Source: Methyloversatilis thermotolerans
GTDB taxonomy: Bacteria > Pseudomonadota > Gammaproteobacteria > Burkholderiales > Rhodocyclaceae
DNA: 64,000 bases
Direction of reading: 5' to 3'
NCBI RefSeq assembly: GCF_000372885.1
Contig: NZ_KB889967.1
Location: 620,001-684,000 of the forward strand
The position numbers were made by a program, and so were the translations under genes. This document shows positions 22,219 to 36,193 of this stretch, in pieces; positions within the stretch are counted from its first letter, which is position 1; the number at the start of each line of letters is the position of its first letter. Below the pieces are notes generated by a model. It saw only the letters and a list, made by a program, of their open reading frames with translations, was not told the origin of the DNA and searched no databases.

Positions 22219-22848
22219 CTAACCGGAGAGTATTGAGTTGGCATGAATGATCGCCCGCGCGATCTCTTCGGTCGGCACGCGCTTGCTCATCGCCTGTTCG
22301 CGGATGATCTTGTAGGCCTCGGCGTCGCTGACGCCGCGGGTGCGCATCAGGATGGCCTTCGCGTCATTGATCTGGTTCACGCTGAGCAGCTTCTGCTCCA
22401 GCCGCTGCACGCGCTTGCGGTAGCCGCGCATTTCCTGCGTCAGGCCCATGGTGAGCACCAGCGACGCGAGCACGCCGGTGGAGCGCACCGGTGAGCTGAG
22501 CACCCCGGTCGCGCCCAGGCGCAGCATCACTTCGAAGATGGTCGGGTTCTCGTAGCCGACCACGGCGATGACTGCGGGCGGCTGTTCGAAATTGCTGAAG
22601 TTCAGCGGCGCATGCATTTCGTTGGACTGGATCGCGTAATAGACCACGTCGACCTTGTCCGGAATGTCCTCGACCGGCGGCCAGAAGGTCTGCACCTGAC
22701 AGCCTATGCGCTTCAGTTGCTGGATGAGCACCTCGCCGTCGGCATCGCGTGGATGCAGCACGACGATGCGCAGATTGCGCAACTGCGACAGGAATTCGGG
22801 CGTGATCCGCTTGCCGGCACGTCCGCTGTTGCGGGGTGGTGTGCTCAC
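22219..22848 (-). CDS. AmiR/NasT-like ANTAR RNA-binding antiterminator
   Basis: 209 residues. The N-terminal half resembles a response-regulator fold (NLRIVVLHPRDADGEVLIQQ start, then VDVVYYAIQSNEM and PAVIAVVGYENPTIFEVM) but without clear phospho-Asp pocket residues, as in AmiR. A coiled-coil (YRKRVQRLEQKLLSVNQ) leads into a C-terminal ANTAR domain (NDAKAILMRTRGVSDAEAYK, IIREQAMSKRVPTEEIARAI). ANTAR proteins bind paired hairpins in leader RNA and stop terminator formation. The start overlaps the amiC-like stop by 4 bp, so a 1:1 AmiC-AmiR type complex is expected. Likely targets are the dmf and urt-ure leaders. Confidence 0.9.
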   Translation of the reverse strand: MSTPPRNSGRAGKRITPEFLSQLRNLRIVVLHPRDADGEVLIQQLKRIGCQVQTFWPPVEDIPDKVDVVYYAIQSNEMHAPLNFSNFEQPPAVIAVVGYENPTIFEVMLRLGATGVLSSPVRSTGVLASLVLTMGLTQEMRGYRKRVQRLEQKLLSVNQINDAKAILMRTRGVSDAEAYKIIREQAMSKRVPTEEIARAIIHANSILSG

Positions 22849-24014
22849 GATGAGGCTTCTTCGCTCGAATTCATGCGCAGCCGGGTGCTCCAGTCGTCGA
22901 AGGAGTGGCTGACCAGATAGGGATCCGCATCCACGCCGCCCGGCGTCTCCGCCAGGATCGTGAACTGGCCGCTGCCATTCACGCGACCGATGCGCGGGTA
23001 GAGCCGGGCGTGGTGATTCTGCGGCAGGATGCGGATGCGGCCCTGCGGTGCTTCGAACTCGCGACCGAGCACATGCGGCAGCAGGATGTCATGTTCGTCG
23101 CTGCCGGCTTCGCGGAAGGCGTCGGCGAACACATGCACCTGGTAGTAGGACGACTCCCAGCTCATGTTCGGCTGCACCTGGGTGCCGAACAGCTTGCGGA
23201 ACAGCGCGACGCAGTCGCGGTTGCGTTGCGTGTCTATCGACTGGAAGTAGGTACCGGCCGTGTAGTGCCCCTCGGCCAGCCGTATGCCCATTTCCGACAC
23301 TTCCTCCTCGCTGGTGCACAGGCTGGCGATCGGCATGGTCTGCGGATCGAAGCCGGCATCGGCATAGGCCTGGTAGAGCATGCGGGTGGTCTTGCCCACC
23401 ATGGTCGAGAAGATGAAATCGGGCCGCTTCGCCTTGATGTCCTTCATGATGGGCGTGAAGGCACTTTCCTGCGCATCCAGATGCACATACCTTTCACCGA
23501 CCTTGGCACCGCCCTGCCGATGGTGCACGAAGTCGCTCATGATGCGGTTCGATTCGTACGGGAAGATGTAGTCGCTGCCTATCAGGTACACCCGCGCACC
23601 GAAATGGCTGGACATGTAGTCGGCGAGCAGCGCGCTGTTCTGGTTCGGCGCGCCGCCGGTGTAGATGATGTTGTTCGAGAACTCGAAGCCCTCGTACATG
23701 GTGGGGCAGAACAGCAGACGGTTCCAGCGCTCGACCACCGGCAGCACCGCCTTGCGCGTGCTCGACATGTAGCAGCCGAATATGACGTTGACCTTGTCCT
23801 CCTGAACCAGGCGGGTGGCCAGGGTGCGGAACATCTGGGGGCTGGATTTCGGGTCGTAATAGACCGGCACGAGTTCGCGGCCGAGTATTCCGCCGGCATC
23901 GTTGATCTCGCGGATGGCGAACAGCGTGCCTGCGAGCATCGTGTTTTCGATGCGCGCGGTGACGCCTTCGCGGGAGAACAGGACGCCGACCTTGATCGGA
24001 TCGGTTGTGGTCAC
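22845..24014 (-). CDS. AmiC-like cytoplasmic amide sensor (UrtA/AmiC family)
   Basis: 389 residues, close to the 385 of Pseudomonas AmiC. It has the type I periplasmic-binding-protein fold of amide/urea receptors (VGVLFSREGVTARIENTM, GGILGRELVPVYYDPKSS, VIFGCYMSSTRKAVLPV, VYLIGSDYIFPYESNR) but no signal peptide: the mature-type sequence begins at residue 7. It should therefore stay in the cytoplasm and hold the AmiR-like partner inactive until a small amide binds. Encoded directly upstream of the ANTAR gene and divergent from dmfA1, the ligand is probably DMF, formamide or a related amide; urea is possible because the ure operon shares the leader. Confidence 0.9.
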   Translation of the reverse strand: MTTTDPIKVGVLFSREGVTARIENTMLAGTLFAIREINDAGGILGRELVPVYYDPKSSPQMFRTLATRLVQEDKVNVIFGCYMSSTRKAVLPVVERWNRLLFCPTMYEGFEFSNNIIYTGGAPNQNSALLADYMSSHFGARVYLIGSDYIFPYESNRIMSDFVHHRQGGAKVGERYVHLDAQESAFTPIMKDIKAKRPDFIFSTMVGKTTRMLYQAYADAGFDPQTMPIASLCTSEEEVSEMGIRLAEGHYTAGTYFQSIDTQRNRDCVALFRKLFGTQVQPNMSWESSYYQVHVFADAFREAGSDEHDILLPHVLGREFEAPQGRIRILPQNHHARLYPRIGRVNGSGQFTILAETPGGVDADPYLVSHSFDDWSTRLRMNSSEEASS

Positions 24015-24061: not shown

Positions 24062-24090
24062 TTGACCTGGCGAAAGACCTTGTCTAGCAT
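24062..24090 (+). promoter_or_regulatory. Sigma70 promoter of the dmf operon
   Basis: TTGACC (24062-24067), exactly 17 bp, TAGCAT (24085-24090). The predicted start near 24097 places the first leader hairpin at the very 5' end of the transcript. The urt-ure leader has the same arrangement (TTGACG, 17 bp, TAGTAT). Confidence 0.8.
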
Positions 24091-24100
24091 CAACTCATCG

Positions 24101-24147
24101 CATCCCGCCGCCAGCACTGCCGGCCGGATGACGGGCAAAAAGGCCTG
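24101..24147 (+). ncRNA. ANTAR-type two-hairpin leader RNA of dmfA1A2
   Basis: Hairpin P1 (24101-24130) pairs CATCCCGCCGCC with GCCGGCCGGATG around the hexaloop AGCACT, with two C-C mismatches. One base later P2 (24132-24147) pairs CGGGC with GCCTG around the hexaloop AAAAAG. The 3' arm of P2 is part of the 5' arm of the following terminator, so P2 and the terminator exclude each other. Paired hexaloop hairpins before a terminator are the known ANTAR target form; the loops start with A as expected, but the G at loop position 4 of the usual consensus is absent. Confidence 0.75.
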
Positions 24148-24177
24148 CACGGATCTCCGGATCCGGCAGGCCTTTTT
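24137..24177 (+). terminator. Leader attenuator terminator upstream of dmfA1
   Basis: AAAAAGGCCTGC pairs with GCAGGCCTTTTT; inside, GGATC/GATCC closes a TCCG tetraloop, and more T follow. It lies 105 bp before dmfA1 and overlaps hairpin P2. It should stop transcription unless the AmiR-like protein holds P1-P2. Confidence 0.88.
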
Positions 24178-24281: not shown

Positions 24282-24722
24282 GTGATTTCCATACCCAGGA
24301 AAGGCACGCCCGAGCGCGACCGGCTCATCCAGGAACACCTCGATTGCGTGAAATCGATGGCAGGCGTGGCCGGGTTTTCGGTGCTCAAGTGCGCCACGCC
24401 GGGCGATACCACCGAAATCAGCGGTGGCGTGCACGAGGATCCGCTGCTCAAGCGCGTGCTGCTGCGCATGCGGGGCACATCGCCCAAGGGCAAGCTGATC
24501 GTGATCTGCACCCAGGTGGACGCCGAGTGGCGCATCGGCCGGCTGTCCGGCATACGCGGCGTGCCGCCCACCTTCGTCGACGACACGATCTATACCAGCG
24601 AACAGGACATCCAGCACGCCGTCTTCCTGATGCGCCTGGACGAGATGGAGGAAAGCGACGGCATGCCCGAGCACTATCACGAAGGCTACAAGCGGCGCGA
24701 CGACAACTGGCCGGCCACCTGA
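24282..24722 (+). CDS. dmfA1: N,N-dimethylformamidase small (light) subunit
   Basis: 146 residues with GTG start, preceded by CAGGAGAAAC. It resembles the small DMFase subunit (about 130 residues in Paracoccus): GTPERDRLIQEHLDCVKSM, LVICTQVDAEWRIGRLSGI and VFLMRLDEMEESDGMP. DMFase hydrolyses N,N-dimethylformamide to dimethylamine and formate. The call rests strongly on the large subunit gene 122 bp downstream. The product amine and formate can both feed the methylotrophic pathways in this genome. Confidence 0.88.
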   Translation: MISIPRKGTPERDRLIQEHLDCVKSMAGVAGFSVLKCATPGDTTEISGGVHEDPLLKRVLLRMRGTSPKGKLIVICTQVDAEWRIGRLSGIRGVPPTFVDDTIYTSEQDIQHAVFLMRLDEMEESDGMPEHYHEGYKRRDDNWPAT

Positions 24723-24844: not shown

Positions 24845-27241
24845 ATGTGTGCAATGCGACTGACCGGATATGCCGACAAGTTCAGCGTTCATCCGGGCGA
24901 CACCATCAAGTTCCATGTCAATTGCGACGGGCCGGCGAAGTACCACGCATCCATCGTGCAGATGATCAACGGCGACACCAATCCGCGCGGCCCCGGCTTC
25001 ATCGAGAAGCCGGTGCAGGCCGATTGCGAGGCCGACTACGATGGCATCAAGCAGGTGGTGTACGGCGGCTCGTACGGTTTCGTGCCGGATGCGCCGCAAC
25101 TGAACCCGGACAGCTTCACGCTGCAGTGCTGGATCTGGCCCACCACGCCTCGGACCGACAAGCGTTACTGGAAGCATGGCCCCCAGGGGCTGCTGACCAA
25201 GTGGTCCGGCGGCAAGGGTTACGGCCTGTTCATCAACACCGACGGCTGTGCCGAACTGCGCATCAATGGCGAAACCTACACCACCGGTGCGCCGCTGCGG
25301 GACCACGCCTGGCACTTCATCGCCGCCAGCTTCGACGCGAACACCGGCGAGGTGGTGCTGTATCACGAACCTCAGGTGGTGTATGCGCTCGACCCGGACA
25401 TCCCGCCGGTCAGGGCGACGTTCAAGGGCAAGGTCGAGCACACCGATCTGCCGCTGGTGATCGCCGGTCATGTCGACCATGTCGATACGGGTCCGCTGGG
25501 CCTGTCGTCGCTGCCGCAGGGCGTCATCGTTGGCGGCCACTACAACGGCAAGATCGACAGCCCGCGCCTGTGCAACCGCGCGCTGTCGCGCTTCGAGATC
25601 GAAATGATGAAGGGCGGCGTGCAGCCGGGCCTGACCGAGCGCCGCAATGCCGGACCGACCGGCGCCCTGTCGGAAGCCATCGTCGCCGCCTGGGATTTTT
25701 CGGATGGCATCGACACCCTGGTGGGCAAGGATGCCGGTCCGTACAAGTTCCACGCCACACTGGTGAATTGTCCGACCCGCGCGCTGACCGGCTACAACTG
25801 GGCCGGCCAGACCTTCGACTGGAAGGTGGCGCCGAAGGAGTACGGTGCCATCCATTTCCACGACGACGACCTGGACAACGCACGCTGGCAGGTGAGTTTC
25901 GAATGGACCGTGCCCACCGGCATCAAGAGCCGGTTCTACGCCGCCAGGCTCACCACGCCCGAGGGTGACGAAGACTACATCCCGTTCTGGGTGGTGCCCA
26001 GGATAGGACAGGAACAGTCGAAGATCGCGGTCATGGTGCCCACCATCAGTTACATGGCCTACGCCAACGAGCATGTGGCGTGCAATGCCGGCGGCGCCGA
26101 ACTGTTCGTCTATCGCGTGCCCATCATGCAGCAGCAGAACATGTTCCTCGCCGAACACCGCGAGTACGGCGGCTCCATCTACGACACCCACACCGACGGC
26201 AGCGGCATCTGCCTGTCGTCGCGGCTGCGTCCCATCCTCAGCATCCGCCCGAAGTACGACCACTTCCTGGCTCAGGCACCGTGGCAGTACCCGGCCGATC
26301 TGCATCTCATCTGCTGGCTGGAAACCCTGGGTTACGAGTACGACGTGTTTACCGACGAGGACGTGACCTACGACGGTCTGGCCAGGCTGGAGAACTACAA
26401 CGTCATCATCACCGGTTCGCACCCCGAGCACAATTCGGGCAGCCAGCTCGACGCCCTGCACAACTATACGCAGCGCGGCGGCCGCCTGATGTACATGGGC
26501 GCCGACGCGTGGTACTGGGTGCATTCCTTCCATCCCGCCTATGAGCATCTGGGGCGCGGCGTTATGACCGAAATGCGGCGCTGTGAATCCGGCATCCGCA
26601 CCTGGCGCGCCGATCCGGGCGAGTACTACCACCAGGGCACCGGCGAGCTGGGCGGCATGTGGCGCTACCGTGGCCGCTATCTGCATTCCGTGGCGGGTGT
26701 GGGCATGTCGTCGGAAGGCTTCGACATTTCGTCCTACTTCTCGCGTACGCCGGAAAGCATGGATGCACGGGTGAGCTGGGCCTTCGAAGGCATCAGCTAC
26801 GACGAGAAACTGGGCAATTTCGGTCTGGTCGGCGGCGGTGCCGCCGGTCTGGAACTGGACATCGTCGACACCATGCTCGGTTCGCCGCCGCACATCCTGA
26901 CCGTGGCCACCTCGGCCGGCCGTCACACGGAAGCCTATCTGCTGGTGATGGAGGACTTCGGTTTCAACCAGCAGGGCCTGGACGGCACCGTGCATCCGCG
27001 CGTGCGCGCCGACATCACCTTCCATGAGACGCCGAATGGCGGCGGCTGCTTCGCGTTCAGCTCCATCGCCTATTGCGGTTCGCTGCCGTGGAACAACTGC
27101 GACAACAACATTTCGCGTCTGACCCGCAACGTGCTCGACCGCTTCATGCAGGACGGCCCGCTGCCGGCTGCACCGCAGGAGGCCTGGAAGCACCGCGGCC
27201 GTGCCGATTACGAGTCGCCGGCGCTGGCCTCTTCGCGCTGA
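24845..27241 (+). CDS. dmfA2: N,N-dimethylformamidase large (heavy) subunit
   Basis: 798 residues, slightly longer than the about 760 of Paracoccus DMFase. N-terminal beta/LamG-like part (roughly residues 60-260: LNPDSFTLQCWIWPTT, GLFINTDGCAELRINGE) and a C-terminal glutamine-amidotransferase-like fold. The known enzyme has a mononuclear iron held by two Tyr and one Glu; by position the counterparts here are Y403 (ISYMAYANEH), Y446 and E528 with catalytic H526 (ITGSHPEHNS). AGGAG lies 8 bp before the ATG. Cytoplasmic, no signal peptide. Activity toward formamide or related amides cannot be excluded. Confidence 0.93.
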   Translation: MCAMRLTGYADKFSVHPGDTIKFHVNCDGPAKYHASIVQMINGDTNPRGPGFIEKPVQADCEADYDGIKQVVYGGSYGFVPDAPQLNPDSFTLQCWIWPTTPRTDKRYWKHGPQGLLTKWSGGKGYGLFINTDGCAELRINGETYTTGAPLRDHAWHFIAASFDANTGEVVLYHEPQVVYALDPDIPPVRATFKGKVEHTDLPLVIAGHVDHVDTGPLGLSSLPQGVIVGGHYNGKIDSPRLCNRALSRFEIEMMKGGVQPGLTERRNAGPTGALSEAIVAAWDFSDGIDTLVGKDAGPYKFHATLVNCPTRALTGYNWAGQTFDWKVAPKEYGAIHFHDDDLDNARWQVSFEWTVPTGIKSRFYAARLTTPEGDEDYIPFWVVPRIGQEQSKIAVMVPTISYMAYANEHVACNAGGAELFVYRVPIMQQQNMFLAEHREYGGSIYDTHTDGSGICLSSRLRPILSIRPKYDHFLAQAPWQYPADLHLICWLETLGYEYDVFTDEDVTYDGLARLENYNVIITGSHPEHNSGSQLDALHNYTQRGGRLMYMGADAWYWVHSFHPAYEHLGRGVMTEMRRCESGIRTWRADPGEYYHQGTGELGGMWRYRGRYLHSVAGVGMSSEGFDISSYFSRTPESMDARVSWAFEGISYDEKLGNFGLVGGGAAGLELDIVDTMLGSPPHILTVATSAGRHTEAYLLVMEDFGFNQQGLDGTVHPRVRADITFHETPNGGGCFAFSSIAYCGSLPWNNCDNNISRLTRNVLDRFMQDGPLPAAPQEAWKHRGRADYESPALASSR

Positions 27242-27283: not shown

Positions 27284-27304
27284 TGGCTGCACAGGAGAAT
27301 GGAC

Positions 27305-28318
27305 ATGACATGCACCATGGATGAGGTGGCGCAGCTTGCAGTCGTGGGTGGGCGCGGGCTCAACGAAGGCGGCGCGTCGCGCGCACTCGACTTCGCGCGC
27401 GCCGAGGATGAGGCGATCTGGACGCGCGAATGGGTGTGCGTGGGACTGTCGTCGGAAATCCCCGAGGCGGGCGATCTGCTGCCCTACACGGTGGGCGATC
27501 ACGCGGTCCATATCCAGCGGATGGGGGATGGCCGGCTGGTCGGACGTTTCAACAAGGCACAGCACGGCGGCTGTCGCGTCGTGCCGCTGCAATGCCGGCA
27601 AGGGGCGAAGACGCCCTGTTCGTTTACGTCCTGCGGGCACAGTCTGGATCGACCTGTGATACGCGCCGGCGAACTCGACGATGGTACGCCGCACATGTTC
27701 CAGTATCTCGGGCTGCGGCCGGAACGACTTCTGCCCGTGCGCACGGCTGCTTTCGGGCCGCTGCTGTTCGTCCATCTCGAGCCTCAGGGTCCGGGCTTCG
27801 CCCGCAGTGAGGCGGCGCTGGCGCACTGCGTGCCGGCGCTCGCCGCGGGTGACGCCTCGGTCATGGCGGACACGATGGAATGGGTGGATTGCGAGGCGAA
27901 CTGGAAGCAGGTGGCGGCCCAACTGCTTGACTCGGACAGGAAGGCTACGCAGCCGGACGGGCCGGTGTTCTCCGCTGACCGGGCGGAGGGCGAGGTCGCC
28001 GTACTGCATTTTCCGAATCTGGTCCTGATGCGCAGTGCCGACAGTCTGTGCGCCGTGGTGCTGCAGCCCGTCGCCCTGGCGCGCACGCGCTGCCGCTTCG
28101 CGCTGCTGTCGGGCGGAGATGGCGTGGCATGGCGCGAGCGGCTGGCTGCGCGTCTGGCCGCCGCACAGCGTACGCAACGCCAGCTCGAGCGGTGCGGCAG
28201 CGCAGACAGCTCCGCGGCGGATGACAGGCCCGATGCGCGCGGGCGCTGGCTGCTGCAGGTCGTGCTTGAGCGAGTGAGGGCACGCACGACGATAGACGAA
28301 GGAGCGATCCATGGATGA
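27305..28318 (+). CDS. Aberrant Rieske-type oxygenase alpha-subunit homologue
   Basis: 337 residues from the ATG at 27305, chosen because AGGAG ends 7 bp before it. The N-terminal half is clearly Rieske-oxygenase-like (IWTREWVCVGLSSEIPEAGD, FNKAQHGGCRVV, FGPLLFVHLEP) and ANWKQVAAQL marks the start of the catalytic domain. However the canonical C-x-H and C-x2-H boxes are absent: the sequence has H87-x2-C90 and C110-x-H112 instead, plus C97 and C105. No His pair for the mononuclear iron follows NWK, and the catalytic domain is short. It is therefore unlikely to be a normal oxygenase. Position directly after dmfA2 suggests an accessory role, perhaps iron handling for DMFase (inference). Overlaps the next gene by 8 bp. 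Confidence 0.75.
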   Translation: MTCTMDEVAQLAVVGGRGLNEGGASRALDFARAEDEAIWTREWVCVGLSSEIPEAGDLLPYTVGDHAVHIQRMGDGRLVGRFNKAQHGGCRVVPLQCRQGAKTPCSFTSCGHSLDRPVIRAGELDDGTPHMFQYLGLRPERLLPVRTAAFGPLLFVHLEPQGPGFARSEAALAHCVPALAAGDASVMADTMEWVDCEANWKQVAAQLLDSDRKATQPDGPVFSADRAEGEVAVLHFPNLVLMRSADSLCAVVLQPVALARTRCRFALLSGGDGVAWRERLAARLAAAQRTQRQLERCGSADSSAADDRPDARGRWLLQVVLERVRARTTIDEGAIHG

Positions 28319-29470: not shown

Positions 29471-29499
29471 TTGACGGCACGGATGGGCCTTCCTAGTAT
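29471..29499 (+). promoter_or_regulatory. Sigma70 promoter of the urtA-like/urease operon
   Basis: TTGACG (29471-29476), exactly 17 bp, TAGTAT (29494-29499). The predicted start near 29506 lies just before hairpin P1, as at the dmf promoter. The short CTTGAC start is shared with the dmf promoter but the spacer differs. Confidence 0.8.
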
Positions 29500-29509
29500 T
29501 GACTCAACT

Positions 29510-29556
29510 TTCCGCGTTGCCAGCATTGCCGGCGCGGAACAAAGGCAAAAGGGCCT
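29510..29556 (+). ncRNA. ANTAR-type two-hairpin leader RNA of the urt-ure operon
   Basis: Hairpin P1 (29510-29539) pairs TTCCGCGTTGCC with GCCGGCGCGGAA around hexaloop AGCATT, with one C-C mismatch and two G-T pairs. P2 (29543-29556) pairs AGGC with GCCT around hexaloop AAAAGG and overlaps the terminator 5' arm. Compared with the dmf leader, the lower P1 stem has a different sequence but keeps pairing, and the C-C mismatch next to the loop-closing pair is conserved. This is strong evidence for a selected RNA structure. Confidence 0.75.
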
Positions 29557-29593
29557 GCCCTGGATCTCCGGATCCGGGCAGGCCCTTTTTTTT
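29547..29593 (+). terminator. Leader attenuator terminator upstream of the urtA-like gene
   Basis: AAAAGGGCCTGCCC, one bulged T, GGATC, TCCG loop, GATCC, GGGCAGGCCC and a run of eight T. The apical GGATC-TCCG-GATCC part is identical to that of the dmf attenuator. It lies 105 bp before the start codon, the same distance as at dmfA1. Confidence 0.9.
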
Positions 29594-29698
29594 CGCCTTT
29601 GCGCTGTTCGATCCCGTAGCACCGCACCGGCAATGACGACGGTGCATTCGCAAGCTCCCCATTCGATTTTTCCTTTCAACATTGCATCGAGGTAGGAC

Positions 29699-30874
29699 AT
29701 GAAGAATCAACTCAGGCGGGACATCGTCAAGGGCCTCGCGCTCGCTTCGGTCGCCGGACCGTGGATGGTGCGCAATGCGCTGGCGGACGATACGGTGAAG
29801 GTGGGCATCCTGCATTCGCTGACCGGCACCATCGCACTGGCGGAGGCGTCGGTCGTGGACGCGGAGAAACTCGCCATCGACGAGATCAATGCGTCGGGCG
29901 GCGTGCTCGGCAAGAAGATCGTGCCGGTGGTCGAGGATGGCGCGAGCGACTGGCCGACCTTTGCCGAGAAGGCGCGCAAGCTGCTCGACCGCGACAAGGT
30001 GGCCGCGGTGTTCGGCTGCTACACCTCCGCTTCGCGCAAGGCCGTGCTGCCGGTGTTCGAACAGATGAAAGGGCTGCTGTACTACCCGACCTATTACGAG
30101 GGCCAGGAACAATCGCCCAACATTCTCTATACCGCACATGAAGCCACGCAGCAGTGCATACAGGCATGCAACTGGCTGCTCGCCAACCGCGGCAAGACCT
30201 TCTATCTGATCGGCTCGGACTACATCTGGCCGCGTGTCACCAACAAGATCGCTCGCCCCACCATCGTGAAAGGGGGCGGCAAGGTGCTGGGTGAGGAATA
30301 CCTGCCGCTGGGCAGCACCAACTTCGGCTCCACCATCAACAAGATCAAGGCGACCAAGCCGGACATCATTCTCAGCACCGTGGTGGGCGGATCCAACGTC
30401 GCCTTCTACAAGCAACTGAAGGCGGCCGGCGTGAACTTCAACAAGACCGCGGTGATGGCGCTGGCCGTGTCGGAAGAGGAGGTGTCGGGCATCGGCAAGG
30501 AGAATGTGCAGGACGTGCTCACCTGCATGAGCTATCTGCAGAGCCTGGACAATCCGGCCAACAAGAAATTCGTCGCAGCCTTCAAGGCGAAGTATGGCGA
30601 CAAGCGCGTCACCGGCGACACCCTGGCCAGCGCCTATACCGCGGTGTACCTGTGGAAGATGGCGGTGGAGAAGGCGAAGAGCTTCGATGTCGACAAGGTG
30701 GTGGCGGCTTCGGCCGGCCTCGAATTCGAAGGGCCGGAAGGCAAGGTGAAGTTCCACGACAGCAATCACCATCTGTGGAAGCAGGCGCGCATCGGTTCGT
30801 TCAATGCCGATGGCCAGGTGAAGCTGTTGTACGAGTCGCCGCTGATCGAACCCAATCCGTATCCGACGCTGTGA
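29699..30874 (+). CDS. urtA: UrtA-like urea/amide ABC transporter binding protein
   Basis: 391 residues. Starts with a twin-arginine-like signal (LRRDIVKGLALASVAGPW, cleavage near ALADD), so it is periplasmic. The rest matches UrtA/FmdD: VKVGILHSLTGTIALAEASV, LDRDKVAAVFGCYTSASRK, GLLYYPTYYEGQEQSPN, YLIGSDYIWPRVTNK and EGKVKFHDSNHHLWKQARIG. It binds urea or short amides. The permease and ATPase genes (urtBCDE) do not follow; urease genes do. It is also a paralogue of the AmiC-like sensor, whose signal peptide is missing. Confidence 0.92.
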   Translation: MKNQLRRDIVKGLALASVAGPWMVRNALADDTVKVGILHSLTGTIALAEASVVDAEKLAIDEINASGGVLGKKIVPVVEDGASDWPTFAEKARKLLDRDKVAAVFGCYTSASRKAVLPVFEQMKGLLYYPTYYEGQEQSPNILYTAHEATQQCIQACNWLLANRGKTFYLIGSDYIWPRVTNKIARPTIVKGGGKVLGEEYLPLGSTNFGSTINKIKATKPDIILSTVVGGSNVAFYKQLKAAGVNFNKTAVMALAVSEEEVSGIGKENVQDVLTCMSYLQSLDNPANKKFVAAFKAKYGDKRVTGDTLASAYTAVYLWKMAVEKAKSFDVDKVVAASAGLEFEGPEGKVKFHDSNHHLWKQARIGSFNADGQVKLLYESPLIEPNPYPTL

Positions 30875-30970
30875 CCAGGGGCGCCCGCCGCCTGGGTGCG
30901 CGGGCGCGCACGCCGGGCGGATGCCGCATCGCGCGGCGTCCGCCATCGGCCAACGATCCGGGATCCCACC

Positions 30971-31468
30971 ATGCTCAGACTGACAGACATCGTCGGCCAT
31001 GCGACCGACGCCGATATCGCCGAGCGCCTGCACCAGATGGAACATGACGGCGTGGTCGAACGCATCCACCTGTCGCGCCGTGACCTGTCGCGTCGGCGCC
31101 AGCGGGTCACCACCGATCGCGGCACCGAAGTTGCGCTCATGCTGGACCGCAGTTCGGGGCTGGACAATGGCGCGGTGCTGCTGCTCGAACCGGCGCGCGC
31201 GGTGCTGGTCGTGCTGGACGAGCCGCAGTGGCTGGTGCTCGGTGCGACGAGTGCGGCGGGCGCGCTGGAAGCCGGCTACTTTGCCGGCAATATGCACTGG
31301 AAGGTGCGCTTCGATGGCGAGCGCCTGTGGGTGCTGCTGGAAGGTCCACGCGACGACTATCTGAAACGTCTTTCTCACCTGCTCGCGCGCGGTCACGCGC
31401 AGGTGATCGATGCGCCGCCGGCACCGGCTGCCGGCGTGCGCTATCTGGCGGTGCCCCATGCGCACTGA
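30971..31468 (+). CDS. ureE: Urease accessory protein UreE (nickel chaperone)
   Basis: 165 residues. Delivers nickel to the urease apoprotein. Seen are the N-terminal peptide-binding domain (LSRRDLSRRRQRVTTDRGTE), the LLEPARAVLVVLDEPQWL strand and the metal-binding region AGYFAGNMHWKVRFDGERLW, where the usual GN.H pattern is kept as GNMHW. The C-terminal His-rich tail is reduced to HAH. It ends inside the ureF start (11-bp overlap). Starting a urease operon with ureE is less common than with ureD or ureA. Confidence 0.92.
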   Translation: MLRLTDIVGHATDADIAERLHQMEHDGVVERIHLSRRDLSRRRQRVTTDRGTEVALMLDRSSGLDNGAVLLLEPARAVLVVLDEPQWLVLGATSAAGALEAGYFAGNMHWKVRFDGERLWVLLEGPRDDYLKRLSHLLARGHAQVIDAPPAPAAGVRYLAVPHAH

Positions 31469-32204
31469 CGCGCCGGTTTCCGACGCCGTTGGCGGCTGGC
31501 CGGCTGACTCCGGCGATGCGCTGTCCATGCTGGGCATGCTGCAGTTCGCCGACAGCTTCTTTCCGAGCGGGGCGACCTCGTTCTCGTGGGGGCTGGAGTC
31601 GCTCAAGCTGGACGGCCGGGTGGGCAACGCAGAACAGGTGTTCGAGGTGCTGTGCGCGCATATCGAACAGCGCTGGGCGGGATTTGACCGACCGCTCATG
31701 CATGCGGCGCGCGAGGCCTGGGTGCAGCGCGGCGCGGCGGCGCTGAACGAAGCGCTGGAACTGGACCGCGTGTGCGAGGCGATGAACCTGTCGCGCGGCT
31801 GGCGCGACGCAAGCCGCCGCCTCGGCTTCACGCAGTTGCGCGTGCACGCCGACCTCGGCCTGGGCATCGCCCAGGTCTATCTGGATCAGGTCCGCGCAGC
31901 CGGAATGCCCGGTCATCTGCCCGTTGTGCAGGGCTTGATCTGGGGAGCCTACGGTCTGGGCGCCGAGGGTTGCGATGCGATGGCGGCGAGCGGTCTGTGT
32001 ACCACGGTCGTCGGTGCCGCGCTGCGCCTGGGCCTGATCGGACATACCGAGGGGCAAAGGCTGCTCGCGCGCACGCGGCCACTGGTCGCGCGCGTCATGG
32101 CCATGCCTCCATGCGGGGTCGATGCGCTGTGGAGCGGGGCGCCGCTGCTCGATGTCGCGGCGATGCGCCACGAAGCCCGTGCGGGCCGGCTGTTCGCGAA
32201 CTGA
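31458..32204 (+). CDS. ureF: Urease accessory protein UreF
   Basis: 248 residues. All-helical member of the UreDFG activation complex, which gates GTP hydrolysis by UreG. Typical motif [21 protein letters not shown] near residue 30, then [15 protein letters not shown] and [12 protein letters not shown]. The ATG at 31458 overlaps the ureE stop. It is followed after 17 bp by the fused ureAB gene. Confidence 0.93.
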
Positions 32205-32221
32205 TATCTGGAGAGGGCTGC

Positions 32222-32926
32222 ATGCTGCTGACACCGACCGAACTGGAAAGACTGACGATATTCAACGCGGCCGAACTGGCGCGCCGACGGCGCGCGCGCG
32301 GCCTGAAGCTGAACTGTCCCGAGGCGATTGCGCTCATCGTGGACGACATCCTGGAGGGCGCGCGCGACGGACGCAGCGTCGCCGAACTGATCTCATACGG
32401 TTCGCAGATACTGAACAGCGACGATGTGCTGCCCGGCGTCGCTGCGCTCATGCCGATGATCCAGGTCGAAGCGAGCTTCCCGGATGGCACCAAGCTGGTG
32501 ACCGTGCACGATCCGATACGGCCTGGACCCGACACCGTGATGCAGGCGACGCCCGATCGCGTACCGGGTGAAATCATTCCGGCCGACGGTCGCATCGAGC
32601 TGAACCCCGGTCGCCGACGCATGACGCTGCGCGCGCTGAATACCGGCGACCGGCCGATACAGGTGGGCAGTCATTTCCATTTCTTCGAGGTGAACCGTGC
32701 GCTTGAATTCGACCGCGCGCAGGCCTGGGGCATGCATCTGGATATCGCCGCCGGCACAGCGGTGCGCTTCGAACCGGGCGAGGACAAGGAGGTGACGCTG
32801 GTCGCCTTCGGCGGCAGCGGCGAGGTATTCGGACTGAACCGCCTGGCCGACGGCCCGACCGCCGACAGCGCCGGCCTGAACGACGCGCTGGCCCGCGCGC
32901 GCGCCGCAGGATTTCGCGGCGCATGA
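32222..32926 (+). CDS. ureAB: Urease gamma-beta fused subunit (UreA-UreB)
   Basis: 234 residues. Residues 1-100 are the gamma subunit ([59 protein letters not shown]) and residues about 115-234 the beta subunit ([52 protein letters not shown]). In most proteobacteria these are two genes; the fusion resembles Helicobacter UreA and some actinobacterial forms. Structural, non-catalytic subunits of cytoplasmic urease. Confidence 0.95.
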
Positions 32927-32957
32927 ACCGATCACCACTGTACAGGGAGGATTCCGG

Positions 32958-34670
32958 ATGGCATGGCTGACCCGACGCGACTACGCGGCGATGTACGGGC
33001 CGACCCGCGGCGACATGATCCGCCTGGGCGACACCTCGCTGCTGGCAGAGATCGAGCACGACTACTCGACGCCGGGTGATGAGTGCCTGCATGGCGGCGG
33101 CAAGACGCTGCGCGACGGCCTGGGCATGATGGCCGGGCTCACCTCGGAGCAGGGCGCGCTCGACATGCTGATCAGCAACGTTGTCGTGATCGATGCCGTC
33201 GCGGGCATCGTGAAGGGCGACATCGGCATCAAGGACGGCCGCATCGTCGCCATCGGCAAGGCCGGCAATCCGCATGTGATGGATGGCGTGCATCCGCAGC
33301 TCGTGGTCGGCAACGCGACCACGGTGCGCGACGGCGAGGGCCTGATCGCGACAGCGGGTGGGCTGGACGTGCACGTGCATTTCGATTCGGCGCAACTGGT
33401 CGAGCACGCGCTGGCGTCCGGCATCACCACGATGTTCGGCGGGTCGCTTGGCCCGATCACGGTCGGCATAGACTGCGGCGGTGCCTGGAATGTCGGCCGC
33501 ATGCTGCAGGCCTCGGAACAGTGGCCGATGAACTTCGGTTTCCTCGGCCGCGGCAACTCGTCGCGCCCGGAGTCGCTGGTGGAACAGATGAAGGCCGGCT
33601 GCATCGGCCTGAAGATCCACGAGGACTGGGGCGCCACGCCAGCCACCATAGACACCTGCCTGTCGGTGGCCGACGAGATGGATTTCCAGGTGCAGTTGCA
33701 CACCGACACGCTGAACGAATCCGGCTTCCTGGAGGACACGCTGGCAGCTACCCGCGGGCGCACCATACACATGTACCACACGGAAGGAGCAGGCGGCGGT
33801 CACGCGCCGGACGTGATCTGCGTGGCCGGCATGCCGCACTGTCTGCCATCGTCGACGAATCCGACCAATCCGTACACCGTGAATACCTTCGACGAGCACC
33901 TGGACATGATCATGGTGTGTCACCACCTGAACCCGGCAGTGCCCGAGGACGTGGCGTTCGCGGAAAGCCGCATCCGCGCGCAGACCATCGCCGCCGAGGA
34001 CGTGCTGCACGACATGGGCGCGATATCCATGCTCGGCTCGGACAGCCAGGGCATGGGCCGCATCAATGAGGTGATCTGTCGCACCTGGCAGCTCGCCAGC
34101 AAGATGAAGGACCAGTTCGGCCGCCTGCCGGAGGAGACCACGCGCAGCGCGGACAACGAACGCATCCTGCGCTACATCGCGAAATACACCATCAATGCCG
34201 CACGCTCGTTCGGCGTCGATCAGCACGTCGGCTCGCTGGAGCCGGGCAAGATCGCCGACATCGTGCTGTGGCGTCCCGCCTTCTTCGGCATCAAGCCGGA
34301 AATCGTGGTCAAGGGCGGTTTCATCGCCTGGGGCGCGATGGGTGATTCGGCGGCGTCGCTGATGACCTGCGAGCCACTCATCATGCGGCCGCAGTGGGGC
34401 GCATTCGGGCGCGCGCCGCAGGGCCTGTCGGCGAACTTCGTCTGCGCCGCGTCGCTGGACAGCGACCTGCACGGCCGCCTCGACCTCCGCAAGGCGCTGC
34501 TGGCCTGCAAGGGTACGCGCACCCTGCAGAAGGCGGACATGGTGCGCAACGCCGCCTGCCCGAACATTTCGGTCAATCCGCAGACCTTTGAAGTCAGCGT
34601 CGACGGGCGCGTGATCGGCTGCCCGCCGGCCGACCGCGTGCCGCTCAACCGTCTTTACATGCTGAGGTGA
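32958..34670 (+). CDS. ureC: Urease alpha (catalytic) subunit
   Basis: 570 residues. Hydrolyses urea to ammonia and carbamate at a dinuclear nickel site. Ligands can be placed: H139 and H141 (GGLDVHVHF), carbamylated K219 (GLKIHEDWG), H248 ([12 protein letters not shown]), H274 ([14 protein letters not shown]) and D362 (GSDSQGMGR); catalytic H322 in the flap VCHHL and R338. Some usually invariant surroundings differ (GGLDVHVHF for [20 protein letters not shown] for SDSQAMGRVGE), so it is a divergent but complete enzyme. Ribosome site AGGGAGGA precedes the ATG. Confidence 0.97.
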
Positions 34671-34674
34671 TGCC

Positions 34675-35316
34675 ATGTCCGCACAACTGAATCCGCACGC
34701 ACGGCCGCGTGGCGCGGCACGGGTCGGCATCGGCGGCCCGGTCGGCTCCGGCAAGACCGCGCTGCTCGAACAGCTCATTCCGCGCTTCATGGCGCGCGGT
34801 ACCGATATCGCGGTCATCACCAACGATCTGGTGACCGCCGAGGACGCGGAACGCGTGCGCCGCAGCGGCCTGATCGCCCCGGAGCGCGTGCTGGCGGTGG
34901 AAACCGGCGCCTGCCCGCATACCGCGATACGCGAGGATCCGACGCTCAATCTCGCTGCGGCCGACGAACTGGATCGCGCCTATCCCGGGCTGGAGCTGAT
35001 CCTGATCGAAAGCGGCGGTGACAATCTCGCTTCGTCGTTCTCGCTCGATCTGGTGGACTACTGGCTGTTCGTGATCGATGTCGCCGGTGGCGACGACATT
35101 CCGCGCAAGCGCGGGCTGGGCGTATTGCAGTGCGACCTGCTGGTGATCAACAAGGTCGATCTGGCCCCGCATGTGCGGGTGAACCTCGATCGCATGGTGA
35201 GCGAGGCGCACGAGGTACGCCTCGGGCGTCCGACACTGCTGACCAATTGCGCGCACGGCGATGGCGTGGACGCGGTGGTCGAACGCATCGCGCAGGAGGT
35301 GCTGTTTGATCGCTGA
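34675..35316 (+). CDS. ureG: Urease accessory GTPase UreG
   Basis: 213 residues. SIMIBI-class GTPase that powers nickel insertion. P-loop [17 protein letters not shown], then [19 protein letters not shown], the nickel-linked Cys-Pro-His ([13 protein letters not shown]), [12 protein letters not shown] and the base motif [10 protein letters not shown]. Four bp after ureC; its end overlaps the ureD start. Confidence 0.96.
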
Positions 35317-36193
35317 GCCGGCACTGGCGGATGCAGTCCTGCGCACGGCACCGGATGCCGCGCTGCGCGCGGATGCGCGACGCTGCGTCGATCTGGCGTT
35401 TGCGCGAGAGGCGTCGGGCCGCGGCTATCTCGCCCGTCAGTTCGTCGCCTATCCGGTGCATGTCGGTCGCGCGCTTCATGTGGATGCGGCAGCGCGCGAT
35501 CTGTGCGTGGTGTATCTGCAGTCGGTATCGGGTGGCCTGTTCGAGCATGAGCGCCTGGCCGGAAGCATAGAGCTGGCTGCCGGCGCGCGCGCGCATGTCG
35601 CGACCCCCGCGTCGACCATCGTGCATGCGATGCAGGGCGGCTGTGCGCTGCAGTCCATGCGCTTGCAGGTGGCGCCGGATGCGTTGCTCGAATACATGCC
35701 GGCGCCGCTCATCCTGTTTCCGGGCAGCCATATGGTGAGCGACATCGAGGTCGAGCTGGCCGATGACGCGCGGGTCATCGTCGCCGACAGCTTTCTGGCG
35801 CACGACCACGAAGGCGGCGACGGCAGTTTCCGGCGCATCGAATCCGCGATGACGGTGCGCGCGACGGACGGCAGACTTCTGGCACGCGAGCGCATGTGTC
35901 TGGATGGCGCACTGTGGCGCACGAATTCGGCCGGCGGTCATGGCGGTCTGCGCATGCACGGCACCCTCTGGATGCTCGGCCGCGGCGCGGATGCGGGTCT
36001 GCTGGCCGAACTGCGCGCCCTGCCGCAAGGTGCGGGCTGCCTCGCCGGTGCCAGCCTGCTGCCGCATTCGGCGGGCATCGTGTTCCGCGTACTGGCCAGT
36101 GACGCGGTGGGGCTCGAGCACCTGCTGCATGCCGCCTGGAGGGCAGCGCGCATTCATTTCACCGGCGCGGCGCCGGGGCTGCGACGACGCTAG
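35306..36193 (+). CDS. ureD: Urease accessory protein UreD
   Basis: 295 residues from a TTG at 35306, chosen because a near-perfect AGGAGGT ends 6 bp before it; the start overlaps the ureG stop by 11 bp. UreD is the scaffold that joins UreF-UreG to urease. Family features: [75 protein letters not shown]. Last gene of the operon; the 200-bp gap after it has no visible terminator. Confidence 0.9.

Follow-up and report, generated by a model that had tools for sequence, protein, structure and literature searches.

The guanine at position 4 of the hexanucleotide loop has been held to be critical for binding by ANTAR domains because it is flipped out and stacked on the protein. In the available text of Ramesh et al. 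2012 (PMC3369931), published ANTAR targets carry A1 and G4 in both hexaloops. SELEX with NasR agrees, with a preference for G at position 4 in addition to A1 and a terminal C:G pair, in the accessible part of that report (PMC7496416). According to the available portion of the EutV crystal study (PMC8934654), G4 stacks on Tyr164 and receives hydrogen bonds from Arg142, Lys149, and Glu160. For actinobacterial RNAs, the accessible text gives A1 and G4 conservation as more than 50% (PMC8164766), and position 4 is therefore known to vary there. Urea transporter genes under ANTAR control already form a known class: section 10 of Ramesh et al., in the text available, places putative ANTAR RNAs before such genes (PMC3369931).

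Here we describe two related leaders in a window, by which we mean the whole 64,000-nucleotide stretch of DNA that was analyzed, from a genome assigned to Methyloversatilis by its named relatives. A sequence-only reading of the window had proposed that one leader plan stands before both a dimethylformamidase (dmf) operon and a urtA-urease operon. The urtA-urease (urt) leader is probably an AmiC/AmiR-type transcription-attenuation switch in which position 4 of the first loop, an A rather than the published G, would be read by the AmiR equivalent of EutV residue 160.

Results

Two leaders with A at loop position 4

The urt leader begins with a plus-strand promoter at 29471 to 29499 (-35 TTGACG at 29471 to 29476, a 17-nt spacer, and -10 TAGTAT at 29494 to 29499), of which TTGAC, the 17-nt spacing, and TA...T are kept in 11 of 11 AmiR-bearing Methyloversatilis genomes. 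On the same strand follows the P1 hairpin (29510 to 29539), supported by folding, covariation, and the strict scan described below. Its hexaloop AGCATT occupies 29522 to 29527 and has A at position 4 (29525); beneath the closing C-G pair lie a C-C mismatch (29520/29529) and then 10 unbroken pairs. The P2 hairpin, AGGC-AAAAGG-GCCU (29543 to 29556, plus strand), appears when P1 and P2 are folded and is conserved in relatives. It overlaps the 5' arm of an intrinsic terminator (29551 to 29593, plus strand) identified by sequence, folding, and covariation, which has the tip GGATC-TCCG-GATCC and a run of eight T ending at 29593, 105 bp before the urtA ATG at 29699. The promoter spacing, both hexaloops, the terminator tip, and the 105-bp gap are all present as the sequence-only reading described them. 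The region from 29509 to 29600 has a folding energy of -59.2 kcal/mol (z = -7.5), a value as low being reached in 0 of 200 shuffles. When P1 and P2 were folded alone, two hexaloop hairpins formed in the urt and dmf copies alike, with the folding program additionally pairing the first and last loop bases inside P1.

The sister leader, also on the plus strand, has a promoter with TTGACC, 17 nt, and TAGCAT (24062 to 24090; sequence and genus comparison), a P1 hairpin at 24101 to 24130 with hexaloop AGCACT at 24113 to 24118 (sequence, strict scan, and folding), a P2 hairpin at 24132 to 24147 with hexaloop AAAAAG (scan and folding of P1 plus P2), and an intrinsic terminator at 24143 to 24177 (genus comparison, strict scan, and folding). 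Exact 17-bp spacing, put forward as part of a shared plan, holds for both copies in the window, but the dmf spacing is 18 in five genomes (L023 to L027). The lower P1 stems differ between copies and keep most of their pairing, as covariation bears out, yet the dmf stem contains a second C-C mismatch. The tip GGATC-TCCG-GATCC occurs exactly at 24151 and 29562 and nowhere else in the window at two or fewer mismatches; the 14-mer by itself is within chance at that threshold, since 19 of 100 shuffles had at least two sites. Because the tip motif GGATCTCCGGATCC is variable even inside Methyloversatilis and missing from the other leaders of A3, it is not diagnostic.

Set against the features that define an ANTAR target, the urt leader has two hairpins with hexanucleotide loops and at least three pairs, A1 in both loops (AGCATT and AAAAGG), and a P2 that overlaps an intrinsic terminator. 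G4 in both loops is the feature it lacks, having A in both, and we therefore file it as a variant that would function as an ANTAR target does, rather than as a canonical member. The sequence-only reading had not raised this departure from the published G, which extends to both loops of both leaders in all 22 leaders from 11 genomes of the genus. A4 in both loops as a peculiarity of Methyloversatilis was ruled out for P2, where A4 is common across the family. Agreement at A1 among relatives is no test, because the scans themselves required A1.

Regulator and putatively controlled genes

By domain content and adjacency, the neighboring regulator is an AmiC/AmiR pair. On the minus strand, an AmiR-like antiterminator with AmiR_N and ANTAR domains (22219 to 22848; PF21332, 1.1e-35; PF03861, 1.2e-13) has as its best solved relative AmiR itself (PDB 1qo0_D, E 8.8e-27). 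The same strand encodes an AmiC-like amide sensor (22845 to 24014; PDB AmiC 1pea, E 5.1e-84; Peripla_BP_5). Their frames meet at 22845 to 22848, and the two genes adjoin the dmf leader. Alignment without gaps places Asp, at codon 22324 to 22326, where EutV has Glu160.

On the plus strand, a putative dimethylformamidase small subunit (24282 to 24722) is named by its position; its product matched no family in a Pfam search, and similar frames occur in two related loci (L018 and L023). The large subunit (24845 to 27241) matches PF20254 DMFA2_C at E 1.5e-90. After dimethylformamidase, at 27299 to 28318 of the window, come a gene weakly matching part of Rieske oxygenases (NCBIfam) and then a Sel1-repeat gene, both sitting between the dmf and urt leaders. 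The urea ABC substrate-binding protein gene urtA (29699 to 30874, plus strand; TIGR03407, 521.9 bits against a cutoff of 492.75) is followed on that strand by ureE, ureF, fused ureA-ureB, ureC, a ureG-like gene, and ureD (30896 to 36193; Pfam, with NCBIfam for ureC).

Three ANTAR genes were found in this genome, one of them beside both leaders. A genome search for further regulon members, proposed by the sequence-only reading and run with a covariance model, returned the urt and dmf leaders and one minus-strand shadow; minus-strand matches at leader sites are shadows of the terminator hairpin. From a single AmiC/AmiR pair beside the only two leaders found by the model, we infer with good support that one regulator controls both operons, as had been suggested. 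The NasT-like leader, the only other readable leader of an ANTAR gene, has different loops, which further supports a single regulator for the two operons.

Selection on the RNA structure

This AmiR is present in 11 of 13 Methyloversatilis genomes, our own included, and both leaders are present in all 11. The resulting 22 leaders, 17 of them distinct, were collected by the sequence of their loops, with no requirement for pairing. Within them, 96.8% of cells pair, and eight pairs vary on both sides, a number as high in 1 of 500 shuffles. The covariation score was 0.301, compared to 0.152 in shuffles, and 0 of 500 shuffles reached it, which supplies the covariation statistics over orthologous leaders that the sequence-only reading had called for. 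The count of further pair types among the 22 leaders was not above that of shuffles (221 of 500). P1 contains seven of the eight pairs changing on both sides, the terminator being nearly constant within the genus. Across 29 leaders from the wider family, most of which were selected by a scan that demands pairing, 14 of 19 pairs vary on both sides, nine of these belonging to the terminator and five to P1. P2 itself hardly varies and showed no covariation of its own. The proposal of a structured RNA under selection is upheld by P1, which covaries within the genus, and by P1 together with the terminator, which covary across the family.

Beneath the closing pair, both P1 hairpins show the C-C mismatch described for them, and 29 of 29 wider-family leaders have C opposite C (26 leaders) or T (3 leaders) there. 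The strict scan required a mismatch at this place, but most AmiR leaders also show this pattern in a looser scan that did not. The mismatch is absent in some second tandem leaders. Loops specific to each copy also persist, with position 5 being C in dmf and T in urt, and the dmf loop reading AACACT in four genomes. Retention of such loops in two copies across 11 genomes speaks against the urt leader being a recent duplication without function.

Leaders in relatives

Species genomes were scanned with an AmiR alignment, giving 80 named loci (Achromobacter, Variovorax, Cupriavidus, Paraburkholderia, Polaromonas, Yersinia, and others). A strict scan that ignored loop position 4 covered 92 sources (the window, L019 to L027, L029, L030, and L040 to L119, leaving out L018 and L028). 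In these 1.6 Mb, mostly around amiR genes, it found 50 sites, compared to 1 in reversed sequence; the sites represent 39 distinct sequences, some genomes having been included twice. Leaders were sought and not found in L043, L051, L068, and L099. A covariance model run over 399 genomes at the order level matched 7, our own included, and an AmiR match was present in five of five tested among the six others, one as a fragment only. At the class level (369 genomes) there were five new, weaker matches, of which only G622 (33%) and G716 (22%) had an AmiR-matching protein. Rfam families reaching the gathering score with the leader numbered zero. Weaker matches, among them mir-9191, Thr_leader, and ftsZ-DE, were rejected because they reflect its strong hairpin.

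Several matches were set aside before counting. These were weak model matches (L049 at 18284 and 18399, L051, L141, L145 to L149, L197, L201, L204, and L205), a second L139 match with an unreadable loop, repeat genomes (L040 to L047 except L043, L052, L090, L182, and L183 with L184), and L181, in which the AmiR match is a fragment lacking the ANTAR part. L203 was rejected as an AmiR case, as it has G4 in both loops and the NasT-like gene 14 kb away encodes Glu160. L202 (G622), with an AmiR only 33% identical, agrees with the pattern described below but went uncounted as too distant; in this genome (L202:1480-1600 and L206), AmiR has Arg at place 160, and the leader just downstream of amiR has the A4 loop AACAGC.

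In relatives with listed genes (L029, L030, L168, L169, L171, L172, and L192), the leader precedes a urtA-like gene that belongs to a transporter-amidase operon, which ends in amiC-amiR in L029 and L030. Genes for an AAA+ ATPase and a VWA-like protein, readable as CbbQ/CbbO-like, lie between amidase and amiC in four loci (L029:9441-12334, L030:2429-4985, L028:3870-6800, and L170:10-2867). Several relatives (L029:3171-3360, L168:5077-5262, L169:3685-3866, L172:4176-4732, L175:283-861, and L176:418-999) carry two or three leaders with terminators one after another, as if tightening control.

Loop position 4 and ANTAR residue 160

A first table of loops against residue 160 combined strict-scan leaders with further covariance-model leaders and left the P. 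oxyphila leaders outside. In it, Glu160 accompanied G4 in 44 of 44 cases, Asp160 accompanied A4 in 37 of 38 (the 11 genus genomes contributing 22), Lys160 combined with Gln149 accompanied A4 in 7 of 7, and Gly160 did so in 1 of 1. A simple Glu-to-Asp switch was too narrow an account once the Lys160 and Gly160 cases appeared. When 81 AmiR-leader pairs were compiled from first leaders, 45 of 46 pairs with Glu had G and 34 of 35 pairs with any other residue had A, an agreement of 79 of 81. Loops of model-found leaders were read by eye, and all 81 were then placed by a pattern script. Three repeats (L185, L186, and L187) were kept among the 81 rows; without them, agreement was 76 of 78 (43 of 44 for Glu with G and 33 of 34 for other residues with A).

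Residue 160 was the best predictor among 195 columns of the AmiR alignment, with 2 leave-one-out errors in 73, compared to 8 for the next best. In a set of 34 representatives no more than 85% alike, it made 2 errors versus 5 for the next column. On the RNA side, the test took in all six loop positions of P1, all six of P2, the mismatch, and the neighboring pairs; P1 position 4 alone matched residue 160 closely (2 errors in 81 versus 21 for the next best). P2 position 4, in 77 parsed leaders, is A in 71 and G in 2 and does not follow residue 160. Because it does not covary and is not G in 75 of 77 leaders whichever residue is present, P2 may not be read as it is in EutV.

Predictions were also written beforehand for 11 AmiRs without a known leader, and ten genomes were searched, that of L043 having given no convincing leader in an earlier search. 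Readable leaders were found in eight, and the predictions were correct for 7 of these 8 and for 8 of the 9 leaders, the loops being read by eye with the prediction known and two of the nine having seven bases. The miss was a Rhizobacter metagenome-assembled genome (G578), with Glu160 and the loop AGCATT (A4); its leader precedes a urtA-like gene on a different contig from amiR, the single ANTAR gene found there. Another exception, L102, combines Asp160 and G4 with Thr149 and Phe164, Lys149 and Tyr164 having been lost, and this AmiR may be decaying or using another contact. It comes from Burkholderia sp. L27(2015) (L102:10001-10585).

In a further AmiR group (L103, L104, L094, L096, L084, L089, L092, L056, L072, and L099), Gln149 and Lys160 replace Lys149 and Glu160, and the first leaders found have A4. 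P. oxyphila, entered once (L056), has two AmiR genes, both with Lys160, and leaders on other contigs; its first leaders, AACACT and AACACC, fit A4, and its second tandem leaders, AACGTT (G4) and AACTAT (T4), break the loop rule. Second tandem leaders lie outside the 81 rows. Additional tandem leaders have G4 in L029 and A4 in L103, L104, L105, and the readable ones of L108, L109, and L114. Seven-base P1 loops, such as AAGATTT and AATGATT, occur in L140, L139, L195, L199, and L111; their position 4 is still A or G according to residue 160.

An AmiR antitermination target in which shared ancestry, not contact, ties loop position 4 to residue 160 is an unlikely reading that draws on the small number of changes. 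On a tree of the 81 rows, residue 160 changes at least five times and the loop at least six times. Independent pairs number one on well supported branches and five in all, none of them opposite (two and four, respectively, with 73 rows), and a sign test cannot reach significance because these pairs are too few. Pagel's test, in our own script, gave a likelihood ratio of 22.9 (p 0.00013) and is lenient when few events are involved. Against ancestry as the whole explanation, all AmiR columns sit on the same tree, yet residue 160 clearly outperformed the rest, and P1 position 4 is the only loop position closely matched to it. The clade with Lys160 changed by another route, and its first leaders are also A4. 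Residue 160 is also among the four G4 contacts named for EutV in the available portion of the crystal study (PMC8934654). Comparison of sequences thus points to a tie between P1 position 4 and ANTAR residue 160 that is strong if unproven, with few independent changes behind it.

Discussion

Transcription attenuation governed by AmiC and AmiR would account for the arrangement of these leaders in the following way. In the absence of inducer, AmiC would hold AmiR, and RNA polymerase would stop at the terminator, some 85 to 90 nt into the message. Binding of an amide or urea-like compound by AmiC would release AmiR as a dimer whose ANTAR domains would hold the P1 and P2 hexaloops, so that P2 retains the 5' arm of the terminator. 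With the terminator lost, polymerase would read through into urtA-ureEF-ureAB-ureCGD, just as it would enter the dmf genes from the sister leader. In this family, P1 position 4 is predicted to be the main sequence-specific contact, with Glu favoring G and Asp, Lys, or Gly favoring A. The controlled genes suggest amides, dimethylformamide, and urea as candidate inducers.

It is very unlikely that the urt leader is a passive copy that attenuates constitutively, leaving AmiR to act on the dmf leader only, as its P1 pairing, hexaloop, mismatch, P2, and promoter have been kept in 11 genomes, and gene-listed relatives have such a leader before a urtA-like gene. Least credible of all is a riboswitch or leader-peptide attenuator that senses urea or amide directly and independently of AmiR: its terminator would work alone, and an undescribed RNA is possible because no Rfam family reached the gathering score and the weak matches include no known amide or urea sensor, but the conserved part consists of two small ANTAR-like hexaloop hairpins without a larger conserved core, the leader occurs together with amiR, and the base in its loop changes in step with an ANTAR residue.

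The putative AmiC/AmiR switch appears to share its genome with a second ANTAR circuit. A NasT-like protein, named by its neighbors, carries Glu at place 160, and just downstream of its gene is a canonical A1/G4 leader (L223:8209-8266) with loops AACGAC and AAGGGT, both G4 as read by eye, the AAGGGT hairpin overlapping a terminator. A motif scan for leaders of the two other ANTAR genes found none; the NasT-like leader surfaced by eye only, and the leader of the third gene (L002) was sought and not found. From the G4 leader of NasT and the A4 leaders of AmiR, one cell appears to hold both a G4 circuit and an A4 circuit. We somewhat favor a natural single-position ANTAR code, in which Glu160 would read G4 of P1, Asp or Lys with Gln149 would turn the preference to A4, and P2 position 4 would go unread in the AmiR family, against the published pattern of two equivalent A1/G4 loops; such a code would insulate the circuits of Methyloversatilis from each other.

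The A4 variant and the association of its loop base with a single contact residue appear new within the literature searched, where we found neither A4 loops nor a residue-160 code described, and nothing on dimethylformamide control in Methyloversatilis; that search covered main texts, mostly outside subscription journals. Natural A4 targets accompanied by a change in a G4-contacting residue offer a directly testable two-letter swap. They also suggest why leaders of this kind could escape models whose loops are fixed as A1/G4. In this methylotroph, dimethylformamide breakdown and urea use would be linked under one amide sensor.

Among known systems, the urea-transporter RNAs of Ramesh et al. 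were found from an A1/G4 seed, and the available text describes no Methyloversatilis case or A4 form (PMC3369931). The nasF leader of Klebsiella oxytoca resembles those described here as a dual hairpin antiterminator whose NasR SELEX includes the terminal C:G and A1, but that selection has G at position 4 and the NasR sensor domain is NIT rather than AmiC, according to the accessible part of the report (PMC7496416). The Enterococcus faecalis eutP leader shares the dual hexaloop, A1, and a P2 overlapping the terminator, as given in the available portion of the EutV study (PMC8934654). Five EutV contacts (K149, Y164, R168, M172, and R175) are kept in the Methyloversatilis AmiR and R142 is replaced by Val; EutV is, however, a two-component regulator that combines Glu160 with G4, where the Methyloversatilis AmiR combines Asp160 with A4. 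The Pseudomonas aeruginosa amiE system has the same AmiC/AmiR pair by sequence and hairpins upstream of an intrinsic terminator. Its hexaloops have A1 and G4 in both, by the published description in the text available (PMC3369931), compared to A at position 4 in Methyloversatilis, and by alignment its AmiR carries Glu where EutV has Glu160, in keeping with the reported G4. The target of AmiR is amiE in P. aeruginosa; in Methyloversatilis, the targets would be the dmf and urtA-urease operons.
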